Source: Planotetraspora silvatica (GTDB lineage: Bacteria; Actinomycetota; Actinomycetes; Streptosporangiales; Streptosporangiaceae). Taken from it: DNA of 64,000 nt. A program made the translations under genes and the position numbers. Location: contig NZ_BOOQ01000042.1 of NCBI RefSeq assembly GCF_016863315.1, positions 62,001 through 126,000 of the forward strand, in the 5' to 3' direction. Each line of letters starts with the position of its first letter. Position 1 is the stretch's first letter. The notes beneath the pieces were generated by a model, which had not been told where the DNA came from, did no database searches, and saw only the letters and a list, made by a program, of their open reading frames with translations. Shown here piece by piece: positions 1,411-18,983 of the stretch.

Positions 1411-3786
1411 GTGACTCTGGGACGCGACGACACCGGCCTCATCCATTCCCCTCCCCGCCGCCGGCACCGGCTCTTCATCCCGGTCCTGGCGACGCTGGCC
1501 GCCTCCGCGCTGACACTCGCGGTGGCCCCGAGCGCCGGCGCCATGACCGGGACCGCCACTGAGACCACTGCCCGCACCACCGCCGGCGCCATGACCGGCA
1601 CCGCCGCTGAGACCACTGCCCGCACCACCACCGGCGCCATGACCGGCACCACCGCTGGAACCGCCGTCGCGAAGGCGGCCGCCGTACCCACCGGCTTCAC
1701 CACTGTGGTGAACCTCGGCAGCGGCAAGTGCGTGGACGCACGGGCCGCCGCCACCGCCAACGGCACGGCCGTGCAGCAGTACGCCTGCAACGGGACCGGC
1801 GCCCAGCTGTGGCAGTTCCAGGCGACGAGCGGCGGCTACTACCGCGTCAACGTGAGCACCAACACCGCCCAGGCCTGGGACGTCACCAACGTCTCCGCCG
1901 CCGACAACGCCCCCATCCAGCTGTGGAGCTACAGCAGGGGCAACAACCAGCAGTGGCAGCCCGTGGAGGAGCCGGGCGGCTCCTACCACTTCGTCAACCG
2001 CTACAGCGGCAAGTGCCTGGACGTGCCCGCCGCGTCCACCGCCGACAGCGTCCAGCTCGGGCAGTACACCTGCAACGGAACGGCGGCGCAGTCTTTCACC
2101 ATGGGAACCCCCTCGACTCCCCCGCCGCCCCCCGGCACCCCAGACCTCGGGCCGAACGTCTTCGTCTTCGATCCGTCGATGCCCGCCTCGACCATCCAGA
2201 GCAGGCTGAACTCCGTGTTCGGCCAGCAGCAGAGCAACCAGTTCGGCACCAACCGGTACGCGCTGCTGTTCCGGCCCGGCTCCTACAACGTCGACGTCAA
2301 CGTGGGCTTCTACACGCAGGTCCTCGGTCTCGGCATGTCCCCCGACAACGTCACCGTCAACGGGGGCGTGCACGTCGAGGCCGACTGGTTCCAGGGCAAC
2401 GCGACCCAGAACTTCTGGCGGGGGGCGGAGAACCTCTCGGTCAACCCCCCGTCCGGCACCGACCGGTGGGCCGTCTCGCAGGCGGCGCCGTACCGCAGGA
2501 TGCACGTGCGGGGCAACCTCCGGCTCGACGACGGCGGATGGTCCAGCGGCGGCTGGATGTCCGACTCGAAGATCGACGGACAGGTCAACTCCGGCAGCCA
2601 GCAGCAGTGGCTGACCCGTAACTCCCAGATCGGCAGCTGGGCCGGCGAGAACTGGAACATCGTGTTCGCCGGAGTGACCGGCGCGCCCGCGACCACCTTC
2701 CCCAACCCGTCGTACACCACGGTCGGCACGACACCGGTGGTGCGCGAGAAGCCGTTCCTGTACGTCGACCAGGCGGGCGCCTACCAGGTCTTCGTGCCCG
2801 CGCTACGGACCAACGCCCAAGGCGCGACCTGGACCGCGGGCACGTCGGCGGGCTCCTCGATCCCGATCGACCAGTTCTTCATCGCCAAGCCGGGCAACTC
2901 CGCCGCCGACATCAACGCCGCGCTCGCCCAGGGCAAGAACCTGCTGTTCACACCCGGCGTCTACCACCTCACCGACACGATCAGGGTGAGCCGGGCCAAC
3001 ACGGTGGTCCTCGGACTCGGGCTCGCCACGCTCCAGGCCGACAACGGCGTCATGGCCATGTCCGTGGCGGACGTCGACGGGGTGAAGGTCGCCGGCCTTC
3101 TCATCGAGGCGGGCACGACCAACTCGCCGCTGCTGATGCAGGTCGGTCCTTCCGGTTCGACGCAGAGCCACGCGGCCAACCCGACGTCGCTGCACGACGT
3201 GTTCTTCCGCATCGGCGGCCCCATCGCGGGCAAGGCCACCCAGAGTCTCGTGATCAACAGCTCCGACGTGATCGGCGACCACATGTGGTTGTGGCGGGCC
3301 GACCACTCGGACAGCTCCCACCCCGGCACCGTCGGCTGGACGGTCAACCCCGCCGACACCGGGCTGATCGTGAACGGCGACAACGTCACGATGTACGGCC
3401 TGTTCGTCGAGCACTATCAGAAGTACCAGGTGATCTGGAACGGCAACGGCGGCCGGACGTACTTCTTCCAGAACGAACTCCCCTACGACCCGCCCAACCA
3501 GTCGGCCTGGATGAACGGCTCCACCCAGGGCTGGGCGGCCTACAAGGTGGGCAATTCGGTCACCAGCCACGAGGCATGGGGGCTCGGCAGCTACGCGTAC
3601 TTCAACGTGAACCCGAGCGTGGTCGAGGCGCGCTCCTTCGAGGTGCCGAACACGGCGAACGTGAAGTTCCACAGCTTGATCACCGTCTCGCTCGGCGGTA
3701 CGGGAACGATCAGCCGCGTCATCAACAACAGCGGCGACCCGGCCAACTCCTCACACCTCGAGTCCCCATTGATCAACTACCCGTAG
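1411..3786 (+). CDS. Secreted ricin-B-type lectin fused to a right-handed beta-helix (GH55/pectate-lyase-like) domain
   Basis: A 791-residue exported protein. The GTG at 1411 follows AGGAGA by 4 bases and is preferred over the upstream ATG at 1342. Residues about 20-45 form a basic-then-hydrophobic signal segment, followed by a Thr/Ala-rich repeat linker. About residues 95-225 form a ricin-B carbohydrate-binding trefoil with three QxW-like repeats (AQLWQF, NQQWQPV, AAQSFTM). After a proline linker, about 540 residues form a beta-helix protein with two similar halves (PGSYNVDVNVGFYTQVLGLG and PGVYHLTDTIRVSR), as in GH55-type exo-glucanases. Such proteins are often mislabelled adenylyl cyclase; nothing here supports that. 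It is probably an extracellular polysaccharide-active enzyme, but the catalytic residues cannot be assigned by eye. Confidence 0.85.
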   Translation: MTLGRDDTGLIHSPPRRRHRLFIPVLATLAASALTLAVAPSAGAMTGTATETTARTTAGAMTGTAAETTARTTTGAMTGTTAGTAVAKAAAVPTGFTTVVNLGSGKCVDARAAATANGTAVQQYACNGTGAQLWQFQATSGGYYRVNVSTNTAQAWDVTNVSAADNAPIQLWSYSRGNNQQWQPVEEPGGSYHFVNRYSGKCLDVPAASTADSVQLGQYTCNGTAAQSFTMGTPSTPPPPPGTPDLGPNVFVFDPSMPASTIQSRLNSVFGQQQSNQFGTNRYALLFRPGSYNVDVNVGFYTQVLGLGMSPDNVTVNGGVHVEADWFQGNATQNFWRGAENLSVNPPSGTDRWAVSQAAPYRRMHVRGNLRLDDGGWSSGGWMSDSKIDGQVNSGSQQQWLTRNSQIGSWAGENWNIVFAGVTGAPATTFPNPSYTTVGTTPVVREKPFLYVDQAGAYQVFVPALRTNAQGATWTAGTSAGSSIPIDQFFIAKPGNSAADINAALAQGKNLLFTPGVYHLTDTIRVSRANTVVLGLGLATLQADNGVMAMSVADVDGVKVAGLLIEAGTTNSPLLMQVGPSGSTQSHAANPTSLHDVFFRIGGPIAGKATQSLVINSSDVIGDHMWLWRADHSDSSHPGTVGWTVNPADTGLIVNGDNVTMYGLFVEHYQKYQVIWNGNGGRTYFFQNELPYDPPNQSAWMNGSTQGWAAYKVGNSVTSHEAWGLGSYAYFNVNPSVVEARSFEVPNTANVKFHSLITVSLGGTGTISRVINNSGDPANSSHLESPLINYP
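1534..1665 (+). repeat. 48-bp in-frame tandem repeat, 2.7 copies
   Basis: Units start at 1534, 1582 and 1630 (the last partial) and encode a 16-residue Thr/Ala motif beginning GAMTG, placed between the signal peptide and the lectin domain. Copies differ at only a few bases, so the expansion looks recent. The encoded segment probably acts as a flexible spacer. Confidence 0.85.
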
Positions 3787-13847: not shown

Positions 13848-15259
13848 TCGTCGCAGACGGGAATCCTGAAGACGAACCGGGCGCCGCCCCCCGGCGACTC
13901 GGCCGCCACCAGCGTGCCGCCGTGAGCGTGGGCGATGTCGCGCGCGATGGCCAGCCCGAGGCCGGTGCCGCCGTGGTTCCGGCTGCGCGCGGTGTCCAGC
14001 CGGGTGAACCGCTCGAAAATCCGCTCACGGTCACCCGCCAGGATTCCCGGCCCGTCGTCGGTCACGGACAGCTCGACGTAGCCGACGCCACGCCGCAGAT
14101 AGACCTCCACGGCATGCCGCGCGTGCCGCTGGGCGTTGTCGATCAGGTTCATGAGCACGCGGACGATCTGAGGCACGGCCGCGTGCACAGTCACCCCCGG
14201 CTCGACGTGCAGACGCACGGGCAGCCGGTCGAGCCGCCGGACGACCTCGCGCTCGACGAGTTCCGACAGGTCCACCCGGGTCCGCGCGGCGTCCCCTTCC
14301 GCCCCGACCCGGACCAGCAGGAGCAGATCGGTGGTGATCGATTCCAGCCTGTCCACGTCGTACAGCGTGTGGTCGAGCAGATCAGGCAGATCGGTCTCCG
14401 CGGGGTGGAGCCGGGCCTCCTCCAGCTCGGCGCGAAGCCCCGCAAGGGGGGTCCGCAACTCGTGCGACGCGTCGGAGACAAACTGACGCTGCCGGCCGAG
14501 CGCCTGGTCGGTGACCCGTTTGGCGTCCTCGATCCGGCCCAGCGTGCCGTTCACGGTCCGCGCCAGCTGGGCGATCTCGTCCTGACCGGGCCACTCGGGC
14601 ACCCTGGTGCTCATGTCGTTGCCGTTGATGGCGGCGAGGTCGGCGCTGATGGCCTTCACCGGCTTGAGCGTGCGCCCCGTGATCACCCAGGTCGCCCAGG
14701 CGGCCAGGATGATCAGCAGACCGTCCTGGAGGCCGAAGAACCGGCCGAAGATCTCGGTCGAGTTCAGGCTCGCCGCCGGGCGGCCCGCGTAGACCACCGG
14801 CGAGTTCGCCTCAGGCTCGACGCGGAGAGCGGCGATCCGGATACAGCCCAGGTGAGCCGTCGACGTACAGGTCTCCACGTCCCGCTCGGGATCGAGTGGG
14901 GTCGGCCACACCCGGCTCAGGACCGGCAGGCCACGAGCGCGCCGGGACGCGTCGACGACCTGATGGCCGGAATTCACGACCTGGACGAAGCCGACGCCCC
15001 CGACCTCCGGCCGCACAGGCTGGGACAGCCGCCCGAGGCGTACGGCCGCGGCGGTGAGGTCGGCCTGGCGCCGGGCCGACAGCCAGATCCCGTCCGTGAC
15101 GGCCTGCCGTCCCACCGCGCCCTCGGCGAGCGCGGTCGGGATCAGCAGGAGGAGGGCGAGAAGCGTGACCAGGGCGGTGATGCGGCCGCGGATGGACCGT
15201 GGCCGCATACGGGCCACACGGCCTCGTAAGCCCACCACTGATCCGGACCTTCCGCGCAC
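13844..15259 (-). CDS. Orphan transmembrane sensor histidine kinase (HAMP, HisKA)
   Basis: About 471 residues. There are two membrane helices (LVTLLALLLLIPTAL near the N-terminus and LLIILAAWATWVITG after the sensor), an extracytoplasmic domain of ~120 residues between them, HAMP, an H-box (VSDASHELRTPLAGL) and ATPase boxes (LIDNAQRHA, DDGPGI, GGTGLGLAIA). The GTG at 15259 is chosen because GGAGG lies 6 bases upstream; an upstream ATG would place the start inside the operator palindrome. No response regulator adjoins it, so its partner is elsewhere. A perfect 17-bp palindrome covers the promoter, pointing to tight repression. Confidence 0.88.
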   Translation of the reverse strand: MRGRSGSVVGLRGRVARMRPRSIRGRITALVTLLALLLLIPTALAEGAVGRQAVTDGIWLSARRQADLTAAAVRLGRLSQPVRPEVGGVGFVQVVNSGHQVVDASRRARGLPVLSRVWPTPLDPERDVETCTSTAHLGCIRIAALRVEPEANSPVVYAGRPAASLNSTEIFGRFFGLQDGLLIILAAWATWVITGRTLKPVKAISADLAAINGNDMSTRVPEWPGQDEIAQLARTVNGTLGRIEDAKRVTDQALGRQRQFVSDASHELRTPLAGLRAELEEARLHPAETDLPDLLDHTLYDVDRLESITTDLLLLVRVGAEGDAARTRVDLSELVEREVVRRLDRLPVRLHVEPGVTVHAAVPQIVRVLMNLIDNAQRHARHAVEVYLRRGVGYVELSVTDDGPGILAGDRERIFERFTRLDTARSRNHGGTGLGLAIARDIAHAHGGTLVAAESPGGGARFVFRIPVCDD

Positions 15260-15279
15260 CGCGCTCCTCCTCGGCATTC

Positions 15280-15296
15280 TCGTATACTGTATACGA
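15280..15296. promoter_or_regulatory. 17-bp perfect palindrome over the orphan kinase promoter
   Basis: TCGTATAC-T-GTATACGA lies 13 bases upstream of the kinase ribosome site and overlaps the probable -10 (TATAC-type) on the minus strand. The core GTATAC-N-GTATAC recurs at 55238-55252. It is very likely a repressor operator; a GntR-type repressor is a guess from the second site's neighbourhood. Confidence 0.6.
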
Positions 15297-15629
15297 TCTT
15301 CGTACATCCAGCCTAACAGGGAGGGATGTGTGATGTGGACGGCCGCGTGAGCCGTCGATGTTCGTGGCCTCGCCGCACCCGCGGCCGGAGTTCGCCGGCG
15401 TAGCCGCCAGGCGGTGCGTCACCTGCTCAAATCCCGGACACAAGTCAAACGGGTACACACCAATAATAACAATTAACTGGATTCATTCAAGTAAAAGAAC
15501 TATTCCAATGAGAAGTGCGGACCGGGACACTCCGTCGTCCCCCTCACACGTTGATCGGCTGTGATCTGGATGTGGTAGCTACTACGTACGGCGCACCGCC
15601 TGACTTCCTGCCTGTTTGCGGAGATGGAT
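15297..15629. other. Intergenic region with an A/T-rich patch before the STAS gene
   Basis: No gene is supported here. The notable part is about 15438-15512, which is far richer in A and T than the rest of the window, with ACCAATAATAACAATTAAC and nearby runs. It probably holds the STAS gene promoter region. A GGGTAC (15451-15456) could be a SigB-type -10, but no convincing -35 is at the right distance. Confidence 0.4.
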
Positions 15630-15989
15630 ATGAGCGACTTCCGCGTGACCGTTGAGACGCACCCGCCATTCACGGTCGTCTCCGTCAGCGGGGAGATCGA
15701 CATCATCACCGAACCCGCGTTCCGCGCCCAGGTGGACGAACTCCTCGACCGGCCGGCGGTGCGACTGCTGTTCGATCTCACCGATCTCCGCTTCCTCGAC
15801 AGCGCGGGACTCCGCGTCATCCTCGACGCGTACGGCCGGCTCGGGCGAGGCGACCGGGTGGCCGTCTGCGGCCTGCTGCCCAACATCCGGCGCCTGTTCC
15901 ACATACTCGGCCTCACCGGCCGCCTCCCCATCTACCCCACCCTCCACGAAGCCCTGACCTCAGCCTCAACCTCACACCCCCCCGCGTGA
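15630..15989 (+). CDS. STAS-domain anti-anti-sigma factor
   Basis: A 119-residue single STAS domain of the SpoIIAA/RsbV/BldG type. When unphosphorylated, such proteins free a stress or developmental sigma factor by binding its anti-sigma kinase. The phosphorylatable serine is in LRFLDSAGLRVI (~residue 57), after the strand VVSVSGEIDI. The ATG at 15630 has GGAG 6 bases upstream; the ATG at 15624 is less well placed. No anti-sigma kinase or sigma gene is adjacent. The stop codon lies inside the first site of the mirror repeat array. Confidence 0.9.
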   Translation: MSDFRVTVETHPPFTVVSVSGEIDIITEPAFRAQVDELLDRPAVRLLFDLTDLRFLDSAGLRVILDAYGRLGRGDRVAVCGLLPNIRRLFHILGLTGRLPIYPTLHEALTSASTSHPPA

Positions 15990-16397
15990 TCATGCACAGG
16001 TTCGGCCGCGCACGCCCCGACCTCCCCACACCTCCGGCGTGATCATGCACAGGTTCGGTCACGTACGGCCCGACCTGCGCGAACACCATTCGTGATCATG
16101 CACACGTTCGGCCGCGTATGGCACCACCTGGACGAACATCGGCCGTGATCATGCACGACCTGCGACCCCGACCGCGGTTTCAACCGCACAGCGAATGTCG
16201 TTCGCATCCGGCAGCCAACGCCCCAAGTGCATGACCACGGATGATGTTCGCGCAGGTCACACGGCACATTCCAGAACTTGCGCATGATCACGGGAAACGT
16301 TTCCGCTGCTCAGGCAACGCGCCGGCGAACTTGTGCATGATCACGCTCGGGGTTGTGGCCGGTCAGGGGGCGTGATCACGAACCTGTGCATGATCAC
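15986..16397. repeat. Mirror-symmetric array of eight 12-bp sites with 53-bp period
   Basis: Four direct copies of GTGATCATGCAC start at 15986, 16039, 16092 and 16145. Four inverted copies (GTGCATGATCAC; two with one mismatch) start at 16227, 16280, 16333 and 16386. Every step within an arm is exactly 53 bases and the whole is symmetric about 16191.5. Bases around the sites are also related, with a unit continuing as AGGTTCG and, ~22 bases later, a GACCTG-type block in most copies, so each arm is a degenerate 53-bp tandem repeat and the arms form an imperfect ~412-bp inverted repeat. It fills the gap between the STAS gene and the DUF6220 gene. The function is unknown. Confidence 0.9.
16293..16304. 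promoter_or_regulatory. 12-bp palindrome of LacI-operator type
   Basis: GGAAACGTTTCC is a perfect palindrome centred on CG, the form usual for LacI/GalR-family operators. It lies inside one unit of the repeat array and no LacI regulator is nearby, so it may be chance. Confidence 0.25.
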
Positions 16398-16545
16398 GGC
16401 CAGGTGGGACTACTGGGGGGGTAGTAGCCGAGGGGGAGGGCGTACTCCTTGGGCCGTAGGCGATGTGTCGCCGGGCGGCGGACGACGGGGCGACCCATGC
16501 CGGGACACCATCGCCACTGTTGGTCCACATTGAAGGGAGCACGCC

Positions 16546-16992
16546 TTGCGCAGGGTCTATCTCGGCCTGGCCGGCCTGATGCTGGCCGCCGTCATGGTGC
16601 AGTGGTATCTCGCGGCCGTCGGCGCGTTCGACAAGCCGCAGGAGGACGACTCGTTCGCACTGCACAGCATGAACGGCATGATGATCATTCCGATCCTCTC
16701 GCTGCTGGCCACCGTGGCCGCGGCACTCTCCAAGGCGCCCGGCCGCACGATCGGGCTCACCATCCTCCCGCTCGGGCTGATCATCGTGCAGGTCCTGATC
16801 ATCGCGCTCGGGAACGCCCTGAACGACAGCTCGGGCAACACCACTCCTGCCTCGCTCGCGGTCCTCGGGCTGCACGCGATCAACGGAATGGCGATCGCGG
16901 CGGTCTCGGTCATGGTGTTCCGCCAGGCACGACGACTCGCCATGGGCACGGCCGCGGGCGACACGCAAAACACGGCGGCGCGCGCCTCATGA
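16546..16992 (+). CDS. DUF6220-like four-helix membrane protein
   Basis: A 148-residue protein with four predicted membrane helices. The first starts right after MRR, and histidines near the membrane faces (ALHSMNGMM and LGLHAINGM) recur in the two halves, which look like an internal duplication (HSMNGM / HAINGM). Paired helix histidines of this kind could bind haem or copper; this is an inference. A TTG start at 16546 follows AAGGGAG by 7 bases. Its stop overlaps the start of the multicopper oxidase (ATGA), so the two are co-translated and the protein may serve that enzyme. Confidence 0.75.
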   Translation: MRRVYLGLAGLMLAAVMVQWYLAAVGAFDKPQEDDSFALHSMNGMMIIPILSLLATVAAALSKAPGRTIGLTILPLGLIIVQVLIIALGNALNDSSGNTTPASLAVLGLHAINGMAIAAVSVMVFRQARRLAMGTAAGDTQNTAARAS

Positions 16993-18983
16993 CCACCGCT
17001 CTGCTCATGACGCTCGACCTGCTCGCCGCGGTTCTGGCCGCGGCGACGTGGCTGGGAGCCGGCGTGGCGGCCGCGTCCCGTCGCCCGAGGACGGCGCTCG
17101 CCCTCCTCGCGTCGGCGGTGCTCGCCTCGCTGGCCCGTGCGGGCGTCGTGGCCGGGCTCGCCGGCTCCGGCTGGTGGTTCGTCCAGGAGAAGGTCACGGT
17201 CGCCCTGCCGCTGCTCCTGGTCACCGGGGTGGCCGCGACCGTACTGGCCGCTCCCCGGCTGGTCAGGGCGGTCCGTTCCCAGGCGGATGCCGACCTGGCC
17301 GGATCGCCCGCCGTCGTCGTGGCTCTGCTGGGCGCGGGATACGCGGCGGCAGGCGGTCTGGCCGGCACGTTGCTGATGGGCTACCCCGCGACCTTGAGCA
17401 CCGCTCTCATCACCGTGGCCGTCGTCGCCGTCGCGATGCTGGTCACCTGGCGGATCGTCGCGGGTCCCGGCCGGTCGCCGCGGATCGTCATCGCGATCAC
17501 GCTCGTGACCGGCCTGGCCGGTACGGGGCTCGCCTTCTTCCCCTCCCCCACGATGGACGACGGCCTCGACCACACCCTGAGCCACAGCGGCATGGGTCAT
17601 CTCGCGATGGCCGCCGGCTCCCCGGCGAAACCGCAGGGCCGGCCGGTGACCTCGTTACGAGGGCCGGCCGCACCCGCGGCGGGCGGAGTCGTCCGCCGCT
17701 ACACGCTCTCCGCGGAGACCGCCGCCATCACTCTGTCGTCCGGGCGGAAGGTCGACGCGTGGACCTTCAACGGTCAGGTCCCCGGCCCGCCGATCACGGC
17801 GAACGTGGGCGATCTCGTCGAGGTACGGCTGCGCAACGCGAACATCCGGTCGGGGGTGACGTTGCACTGGCACGGCTACGACGTACCGGCCGGTGAGGAC
17901 GGCGTGCCGGGGCTCACCCAGGAAGCGGTCCTCCCCGGGCAGGAGTTCGTCTACCGATTCCTCGCCGACCGGCAGGGGACCTTCTGGTACCACACCCACG
18001 AGGTCTCCGACCTCGGCGTCAGGATGGGCCTGTACGGCACCATGGTCGTCGGCCCGCCGTCGGCGGGCGTCGATCTGACCCTTCCCGTCCACACGTTCGC
18101 GGGCAGGACGGTCGTCGGCGGCCGCGACCAGCCCCTCGACCAGCGCGTCTCTCCAGGAACGCAGGTACGGCTGCGCCTCATCAACACCGACAACACCCCG
18201 CACCGGTTCACCCTCGCCGGCACGCCGTACCGGCTCGTCGCCGTCGACGGCACCGACCTGAACGGCCCGGGCGAACTCGACCGGACGGGTCTGCGCCTGC
18301 CCGCGGGCGGCCGGTACGACCTGACCTTCACCATGCCCGCCGACCATGACGTCGTGCTGAACACCGACGACCGCACCCCGTCCGTACGGCTCACGCGGCA
18401 GGCCTCGGCCCCGACGACGACAGCCGGCACCACAGCCGACACCACAGCCAGTGCCGCGGCCGGCGTCACAGCCAGTGCGACGGAGGACACGAAAAGCTGG
18501 CCCGACCTGGACCTCACCACGTACGGCACGCCCGCCACCACGCCGTTCACCGCGGCGGACACGTTCGACCGCCGATTCACCCTCGTGCTCGACCGCGGCC
18601 TCTCCCTGGCCGGTGGGCGGCCGATGTACGCGTACACGGTCAACGGGCACGCGTTCCCCTCGATCCCGACCGAGATCGTGTCGACCGGCGATCTCGTCCG
18701 CCTCACCGTGGTCAACCGGAGCCGCGACATCCACCCGTGGCACCTGCACGGGCACCGTGTCCTGGTGCTCTCCCGCGACGGGCGGGCACCGACCGGCAGC
18801 CCGTTGTGGCTGGACACCTTCGACCTGCAGCCCGGCGAGGTATGGGAGGTCGCGTTCCGCGCCACCAACCCCGGTCTGTGGATGAACCACTGCCACAACC
18901 TCGTCCACGCCGACCAGGGCATGGCCCTCCACCTGGCGTACGAAGGGGTCACGACGCCGTTCCACGGGGCGCACGGCGGCTAG
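16989..18983 (+). CDS. Membrane-anchored multicopper oxidase
   Basis: A 664-residue fusion. Residues 1 to ~185 carry about six membrane helices; the rest is an extracytoplasmic multicopper oxidase. Copper-binding motifs are complete: LHWHGYD (~295), FWYHTHE (~334), DIHPWHLHGH (~580) and MNHCHNLVHADQGM (~634), which includes the HCH bridge and the type-1 axial methionine. A Thr/Ala-rich linker interrupts the middle cupredoxin. The role may be copper(I) or other metal oxidation at the cell surface. It overlaps the DUF6220 gene by 4 bases. Most enzymes of this class are exported by Sec or Tat without such a large membrane part, so the anchor is unusual. Confidence 0.9.
   Translation: MTTALLMTLDLLAAVLAAATWLGAGVAAASRRPRTALALLASAVLASLARAGVVAGLAGSGWWFVQEKVTVALPLLLVTGVAATVLAAPRLVRAVRSQADADLAGSPAVVVALLGAGYAAAGGLAGTLLMGYPATLSTALITVAVVAVAMLVTWRIVAGPGRSPRIVIAITLVTGLAGTGLAFFPSPTMDDGLDHTLSHSGMGHLAMAAGSPAKPQGRPVTSLRGPAAPAAGGVVRRYTLSAETAAITLSSGRKVDAWTFNGQVPGPPITANVGDLVEVRLRNANIRSGVTLHWHGYDVPAGEDGVPGLTQEAVLPGQEFVYRFLADRQGTFWYHTHEVSDLGVRMGLYGTMVVGPPSAGVDLTLPVHTFAGRTVVGGRDQPLDQRVSPGTQVRLRLINTDNTPHRFTLAGTPYRLVAVDGTDLNGPGELDRTGLRLPAGGRYDLTFTMPADHDVVLNTDDRTPSVRLTRQASAPTTTAGTTADTTASAAAGVTASATEDTKSWPDLDLTTYGTPATTPFTAADTFDRRFTLVLDRGLSLAGGRPMYAYTVNGHAFPSIPTEIVSTGDLVRLTVVNRSRDIHPWHLHGHRVLVLSRDGRAPTGSPLWLDTFDLQPGEVWEVAFRATNPGLWMNHCHNLVHADQGMALHLAYEGVTTPFHGAHGG

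Follow-up and report, generated by a model that had tools for sequence, protein, structure and literature searches.

Polar, fixed-step repeat arrays at gene ends in Planotetraspora: candidate rows of protein-binding sites

Introduction

Stoperators of the mycobacteriophage L5 type, as the available text of PMC9283540 describes them, are asymmetric, intergenic and orientation-dependent sites for a repressor with two DNA-binding domains that has been proposed to halt elongation, and reversing such a site abolishes repression. Repetitive extragenic palindromic (REP) elements, according to the accessible part of PMC3733652, are repeated many times on the downstream side of genes, where the neighbours are convergent or co-directional, and often in opposite orientation. 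Here we describe arrays of a short asymmetric repeat in Planotetraspora, beginning with one from Planotetraspora silvatica in a stretch of 64,000 nucleotides (contig NZ_BOOQ01000042.1, positions 62,001 to 126,000 of the forward strand), which we call the window. In this array, a 12-mer, GTGATCATGCAC, recurs in four forward sites followed by four inverted ones. Our favoured, although tentative, interpretation is that a candidate DNA-binding protein would occupy the sites of each half-array as a polar row, and would thereby mark gene ends and limit read-through in a manner resembling that of stoperators.

Other systems offer useful comparisons. Mycobacterial interspersed repetitive units (MIRU) are tandem intergenic repeats of tens of base pairs that overlap stop codons, and their copies are near identical and arranged head to tail only. 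The repeats of clustered regularly interspaced short palindromic repeats (CRISPR) are approximately 21-48 bp long and near identical; the spacers are unrelated, and cas genes lie next to the array. The matS and parS sites, the FtsK-orienting polar sequences (KOPS) and DNA uptake sequences are short motifs present many times in chromosomes and recognized by a dedicated protein, and they occur as single sites or loose clusters. To our knowledge, none of these last four forms a fixed-step array at gene ends.

Results

Architecture and abundance of the arrays

The eight sites of the window array step by 53 bp within each arm, and the forward and reverse starts pair to equal sums, which places the mirror centre at 16191.5. 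These coordinates, the step and the symmetry all agree with the original prediction, which was made from the letters of the window. It had also assigned an identical 12-mer to all eight sites; this holds for six of them, and the remaining two carry one mismatch each. The features of the array are as follows.

15986..16156, forward strand: half-array of four sites, with its head adjoining the 3' end of the STAS gene and its tail at 16145
15986..15997, forward strand: site 1 (head), exact
16039..16050, forward strand: site 2, exact
16092..16103, forward strand: site 3, exact
16145..16156, forward strand: site 4 (tail of the forward half), exact
16157..16226, no strand: centre between the tails, with two small inverted repeats, GCGGTT-TC-AACCGC (16174-16187) and GCGAA-TGTCG-TTCGC (16191-16205), and without a terminator-like site
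16227..16397, reverse strand: half-array of four sites, with its head facing the start of the next forward gene, 148 bp away
16227..16238, reverse strand: site 5 (tail of the reverse half), one mismatch, GTGGTCATGCAC
16280..16291, reverse strand: site 6, one mismatch, GTGATCATGCGC
16333..16344, reverse strand: site 7, exact
16386..16397, reverse strand: site 8 (head of the reverse half), exact

Matches to the 12-mer with at most two mismatches number 19 in the window, against 4.24 (standard deviation 1.91) in shuffled sequences, and 0 of 100 shuffles reach 19. There is an extra, partially palindromic motif, GTGATCAC, at 16368-16383 between the last two reverse sites, which has two mismatches on either strand. 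Separately, a perfect palindrome, GGAAACGTTTCC, lies at 16293-16304 within a spacer of the reverse half-array.

The array is real, but it is not a single special locus. Allowing one mismatch, the 12-mer has 519 + 519 matches in the genome (designated G000), in the scan's own tally, compared with 3 + 1 for the reversed pattern. A continuous 620-kb stretch (C2) contains 19 loci that are flanked by a gene at each end, or about one locus per 30 kb, which corresponds to roughly 265 per genome. This density is quoted from C2 only, because the other stretches (C3, C1, most of those from genomes G001 and G002, G078, genus g79, and L059-L138) were selected for holding arrays.

Half-arrays typically have three to six sites. 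A total of 42 were counted over 784 kb: 24 with four sites, 11 with five, four with three, two with six and one with two. Consecutive same-strand sites in Planotetraspora stretches, no more than 230 bp apart, are separated by exactly 53 bp in 667 of 757 cases, by 52 bp in 38 and by 54 bp in five. Thus, the 12-mer is frequent in the genome, yet it is not scattered without spacing. Moreover, half-arrays have no mirror partner at 25 of 50 loci. A mirror is two half-arrays placed tail to tail, and half-arrays are also found alone.

The 53-bp unit comprises the near-invariant 11-bp core GTGATCATGCA, followed by cARRTTCG and then YGACCTGC, with variable DNA between them. Among 194 units, conservation is seen at positions 1-19, 33-40, 45-46 and 53, though not equally strongly at all of them, and positions 20-31 and 41-52 are mostly variable. 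In total, approximately 30 of the 53 positions are conserved, and the unit is asymmetric over its full length. In the same set, heads begin sharply at C|GTGATCATGCA and tails stop sharply after GTGATCATGCA.

Although CAGGTTCG and YGACCTG seem complementary, no covariation at pairable positions within the unit is evident in 552 units, and the unit is therefore not an RNA hairpin. The strongest mutual information in these 552 units is instead between adjacent bases. Such dependence between neighbouring bases without pairing is the signature of protein-read DNA, not that of a stem in RNA.

Mirror geometry and RNA folding

Tail-to-tail gaps have preferred lengths. Among 88 distinct Planotetraspora mirrors, which include orthologues from different species, 28 have 13 bp between the facing 11-mers and five have 12 bp; the remaining gaps are spread up to 140 bp, and some, judged by eye, surround a small hairpin. 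Five of eight mirrors in genus g79 have a gap of 2 bp. In genome G070 the gap is 2-3 bp in four and 12 bp in four among 17 tail pairs, which were picked by hand from 100 of 126 rows with one pair about 750 bp apart omitted. The 2-bp gap and the 12-13-bp gap differ by approximately one helical turn.

At variable positions, mean identity is 0.381 between mirror partners, 0.355 between non-partners in opposite halves, 0.387 between units of the same half and 0.341 between units of different arrays. A few pairs of units are almost identical, a sign that units may be exchanged now and then.

Mirrored arrays could perhaps be transcribed into long hairpins that serve in termination, RNA stability or antisense regulation. 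Indeed, the 412-nucleotide transcript of the full window array folds with a z score of -11.3 relative to shuffles, and some mirror centres appear by eye to be extended palindromes. However, an inverted array is expected to fold well, and the forward half by itself has no folding advantage over its shuffles (z -0.8). Mirror-partner identity at the two inner units (0.349 and 0.358) is hardly above that of other-half units (0.338 and 0.342), so a selected long duplex between the halves is rejected there. Partner identity is somewhat higher at the outer units (0.457 versus 0.367, and 0.466 versus 0.427, the latter with n = 8), where such a duplex retains a small probability. Changes in a site are matched in its mirror partner in 20 of 127 cases, compared with 20 of 391 at other sites. 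There are no terminator-like sites (a G+C-rich stem followed by a T run) at 15500-16700 of the window locus, and no Rfam match up to an E value of 1 is found at 15000-17600. Given these folding and identity results and the lack of covariation within the unit, we regard an RNA element as highly improbable, and the earlier suggestion of a long hairpin RNA under selection is not upheld.

Position relative to genes

Genes were called with a codon-bias caller made for this analysis rather than taken from published annotation. The following genes flank the window array.

15624..15989, forward strand: STAS-domain protein gene (Pfam STAS, 8.1e-20), with its TGA stop at 15987-15989 inside site 1
16546..16992, forward strand: downstream gene for a DUF6220 protein (Pfam, 3.2e-15)
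16989..18983, forward strand: multicopper oxidase gene (Pfam Cu-oxidase_3, 2.2e-33)

Five genes scanned near the array encode a two-component kinase, the STAS and DUF6220 proteins, the multicopper oxidase and a response regulator. The STAS stop codon does lie inside the first site, as had been noticed at the outset. The window locus thus combines both orientations, its forward head meeting this stop codon and its reverse head pointing to where the next gene starts. At 15281-15295, a perfect inverted repeat with an operator-like look, CGTATAC-T-GTATACG, is located at the start of a reverse-strand sensor-kinase gene.

Positions were counted for 50 loci from three species, including orthologues and omitting halves with fewer than three sites and the end-of-stretch array at C2 619504. 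None of the 50 loci is centred inside a called gene. The flanking genes are convergent at 21 loci, co-directional at 27 and divergent at two, compared with 232 convergent among 1351 background gene pairs. A gene 3' end adjoins 54 of the 75 heads; 15 of these overlap exactly, with the stop codon in the site, 33 are 8-52 bp away, three overlap further and three are beyond 60 bp. Thus, the head of an array sometimes supplies the TGA stop of a gene. In G000 alone, 27 heads point toward 3' ends and 12 toward starts (p 0.024), nine heads have a stop inside the site, and the locus is convergent at 11 of 25 loci versus 17.7% of gene pairs (p 0.002). Exceptions to this orientation are a minority, and some are common to several species.

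The arrays might instead organize the chromosome, with the roughly 265 bound arrays acting as dispersed anchors or domain boundaries for nucleoid structure, cohesion or segregation, and with gene ends merely tolerated as locations. The density of loci, the strict helical step and the dyad pairs are all in keeping with this proposal. The evidence for regular spacing along the chromosome is weak, since the coefficient of variation of the spacing is 0.61 (p 0.03), 0.74 (p 0.27) and 0.60 (p 0.06) in three stretches, with p values against a random choice of intergenic sites; loci are thus somewhat more even than random in one of three, and the stretches from the three species partly overlap by orthology. 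Furthermore, polarity and stop-codon overlap are not required by such a role, and solo half-arrays are common. We consider chromosome organization, the main rival to a boundary role on these data, to be rather unlikely.

Conservation and a species-wide base change

Array locations are stable between genomes. Between G003 and G004, four of four array loci between orthologous neighbours are shared, and no gain or loss is seen among 145 such gene pairs. Ten loci were paired by order and context across three species (G000, G003 and G004). Site identity at these loci is 0.96 for G000-G003, 0.97 for G000-G004 and 0.95 for G003-G004, compared with 0.56, 0.83 and 0.58, respectively, at variable positions, where alignment is forced and identity thus lowered if unit numbers differ. 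The flanks, which are partly coding, have identities of 0.77, 0.91 and 0.77. The number of units shifts by duplication and deletion, and the step is retained. The positions of the arrays are kept while the variable bases drift, and therefore the sites are under selection, as was originally proposed for the 12-mers. Judged from these alignments, the arrays are old and their sites are subject to purifying selection.

There is also a base change that extends across an entire species. Of the 79 head and internal sites sampled in G001, 78 have G at position 12 (GTGATCATGCAGAAGTTCG), where relatives have C; for example, C is present in 130 of 134 head and internal sites of G000. Tails of G001 retain C in 26 of 30 cases. 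Throughout G001 there are three pairs of the full 12-mer versus 744 pairs of the 9-bp core TGATCATGC at the equal step. Since this one-base difference affects nearly all sites in arrays whose spacers are unrelated, it is best explained by a changed reader that acts in trans. Heads and tails differ in genus g79 as well (GTGATCTTGtAGTTTGTCGCA for heads and GTGATCaTGCA for tails), so that sites also come in position-specific types.

Another possibility is that the arrays are the decayed remainder of old, non-autonomous mobile repeats, similar to REP elements or miniature transposons, whose sites were read by a mobilizing enzyme. Stop codons inside site 1 suggest past landing on gene ends, the distribution across genera is patchy, and there has been some exchange, duplication and loss of units. 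However, units compared between arrays show no relationship at their variable positions (mean identity 0.341), locations agree between species (the four of four shared loci and the ten matched loci), sites are better conserved than their flanks, and the unit lacks pairing. These results speak against a miniature transposon with similar copies, and the small element with inverted ends that had been suggested for the window array is not supported. A blastn search with the window array against phage and plasmid collections gave no match, although arrays with other spacers could be missed by this search. Taken together, an origin from mobile repeats seems distinctly unlikely.

Carriage by phages or plasmids was also considered, and rejected as far as the blastn search with the window array extends. 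Three viral contigs had the paired core, and two of them, L280 and L281, have no array of intact sites at the 53-bp step. Of the further viral-pattern scans, two gave no matches, one gave three single matches and a looser one gave one match per listed contig. In the third contig with the paired core, L282, the match is to an 18-bp tandem repeat at 3350-3580, GTGATCATGCCGTAGTAT, that is unrelated to the arrays.

Distribution in relatives and beyond

Pairs of the exact 12-mer 52-54 bp apart were found in five of 41 genomes, each of which belongs to the same genus; the remaining 36 have none. Similarly, a scan of named genomes yielded 80 loci (of 81 stretches) that are all from Planotetraspora, among the matches listed. 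In a midpoint-rooted recA tree of 28 rows, which was made without G241 and G155, Planotetraspora groups with genera g73 and g79 with support of 99/98. The paired core is present in five of 15 genomes of g79, and a scan of G183 (one contig) with a model of the unit gave no match.

Within the family, the unit model has matches in at least 20 of 150 genomes and at least nine of 68 genera, with many in g1, g73, g48 and G136 (g79) and few elsewhere. These counts are lower bounds because 35 candidates were scored per genome, and the scans with this model (R1) had no reversed control. In G053 (g48), the step is 53 bp in 22 of the 27 pairs listed out of 50. In G070 (g65), it is 41 bp in 81 of the 100 pairs listed out of 126, and GCAGGTCA replaces its reverse complement TGACCTGC, so that the second motif is inverted when judged by eye. 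A lone 53-bp unit resembling those of Planotetraspora is located at C50:18815-18877 of G070, in a genome that mostly steps by 41 bp among the arrays listed.

Across the class, and including the same family, the paired core is found in nine of 246 genomes, three of which (G106, G380 and G419) have a single match each. Also among the nine are four genomes from three other families (G329, G388, G327 and G447), which contain repeats with the GTGATCATGCA core and their own extensions. When 396 genomes from the phylum were scanned for CGTGATCATGCA, only G000 (388 + 363) and G329 (134 + 154) exceeded six copies. A common origin of these out-of-family repeats with the Planotetraspora arrays is a lead offered by the shared core. 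G327 has a 22-bp tandem repeat with the GTGATCATGCA core. L163 matches itself at nearly every lag, apparently because it consists of a single repeated letter or of N, and was set aside.

One described protein could in principle read such sites, namely the arginine repressor ArgR, whose sites might have been amplified. In the available text of PMC5839063, a reported Streptomyces coelicolor ARG box (SCO5864) from a band-shifted fragment, CTCTCCGTGATCATGCACCC, contains the exact 12-mer. An ARG box is nevertheless an imperfect palindrome of up to 20 nucleotides, found singly or as contiguous pairs, whereas the array unit is asymmetric over 53 bp, conserved at approximately 30 positions, repeated at steps of 53 or 41 bp and equipped with lineage-dependent extensions. 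ArgR is also widespread in actinobacteria, in contrast to the patchy arrays. Amplified ArgR sites are therefore an extremely improbable explanation.

Comparison with described repeat systems

Stoperators resemble the arrays in being asymmetric sites spread across intergenic DNA. Stoperators are oriented with transcription; array heads in G000 lean toward gene 3' ends (27 versus 12), with a minority of exceptions. The scale differs, with 26 stoperator sites in one phage genome and about 265 arrays in the Planotetraspora chromosome, and neither a helical step nor mirrored half-arrays are among the features given in the available text of PMC9283540. By analogy, stoperators may serve as a model for a polar block by an asymmetric binder with two domains.

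The location of the arrays, with 54 of 75 heads adjoining the 3' end of a gene and 48 of 50 loci other than divergent, is also like that of REP elements and the composites built from them, bacterial interspersed mosaic elements (BIME) and REP doublets forming hairpins (REPIN). According to the accessible part of PMC3733652, these are 20-40 bp palindromes and most REP elements carry a GTAG or CGTC tag, whereas the array unit is not palindromic (as the lack of covariation in 552 units and the z score of -0.8 for the forward half of the window array indicate), begins at C|GTGATCATGCA without such an end tag, and is ordered at a fixed step.

As with MIRU, the arrays are tandem intergenic repeats of tens of base pairs, some of which overlap stop codons, but their spacers are unrelated and their half-arrays are mirrored. 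Like matS, parS, KOPS and uptake sequences, they are short motifs at many places in the chromosome, and they differ from these by the fixed step at gene ends.

A short direct repeat with diverse intervening DNA superficially recalls CRISPR. However, the constant part is 11-12 bp long and the rest is degenerate, YGACCTGC and further motifs recur at set positions in the spacers, the halves are inverted and there are hundreds of loci; the initial judgement that the array is not CRISPR-like is thus supported. A survey of Planotetraspora, in the part of PMC11431748 available, lists 4, 15, 3, 18 and 64 CRISPRs called by DFAST in five species, a wide spread for such close relatives. The arrays are a likely source of false calls, and some of these CRISPRs may correspond to them.

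Discussion

Side-by-side binding of a protein on one face of the DNA is indicated by several features together: the strict step of about five helical turns, the polarity, the favoured spacings at the dyads, a motif in two parts and a base difference that extends across a species. A protein-binding platform of this kind had been suggested for the window array, and the wider data bear it out. Both binding and selection are well supported by the patterns described above. We propose that a candidate lineage-specific protein, or a pair of proteins, reads GTGATCATGCA, its 3' extension and YGACCTGC. Copies of this protein would dock every five helical turns, perhaps cooperatively, and would lie side by side on one DNA face. 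Head sites are found mainly where genes end, and half-arrays paired tail to tail occupy the gaps between neighbouring, often convergent, genes. The bound row might then mark the end of a transcription unit by slowing or stopping RNA polymerase as it leaves the gene, and it might likewise slow or stop antisense transcription that arrives from the neighbour. A role as a boundary is the most likely of the functions for such rows because the arrays are located at gene ends.

Several observations weigh against this proposal. Position alone is weak proof, because any dispensable insert would also shun promoters and coding DNA, and REP elements have a similar position bias in the accessible part of PMC3733652. 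Gene starts adjoin 21 of the 75 heads and two mirrors lie between divergent genes; a gene-end role therefore misfits some halves. Wherever a stop codon falls inside site 1, polymerase must traverse that site to complete the gene. No helical phase is significant for tail-to-tail gaps longer than 14 bp (p 0.56, n = 49), and G078, although it retains the motifs, is less strict in its step (52-54 bp) and has mirror gaps of 12-13 bp in only two of eight cases. The step is irregular in g64, and steps are mostly irregular in the repeats of G329, G388, G327 and G447.

A broader proposal is that these arrays represent an undescribed chromosome-marking system of Actinomycetes. Its proteins would read the 11-bp core GTGATCATGCA together with an extension peculiar to each lineage, and rows at gene ends would set the boundaries of transcription units. 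The step would be kept near whole helical turns (five for Planotetraspora with its neighbours and for g48, and four, with the second motif inverted, for g65), and protein and sites would co-evolve species by species. We advance this as a possibility that is still doubtful. Among the titles listed by our searches of open-licence literature, none could be seen to describe these repeats.

If the arrays act as we propose, many transcription units would be ended or insulated by rows of bound protein, and not by RNA hairpins or Rho alone, and the specificity and spacing of the protein would have been rewritten more than once. The hundreds of natural variants in each genome, the one-base difference between species and the change from a 53-bp to a 41-bp step would make both co-evolution and polar blocks testable. 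Should the arrays prove to be structural or mobile instead, they would still constitute a large, conserved and apparently undescribed part of the genome, some of which may have been miscounted as CRISPR.
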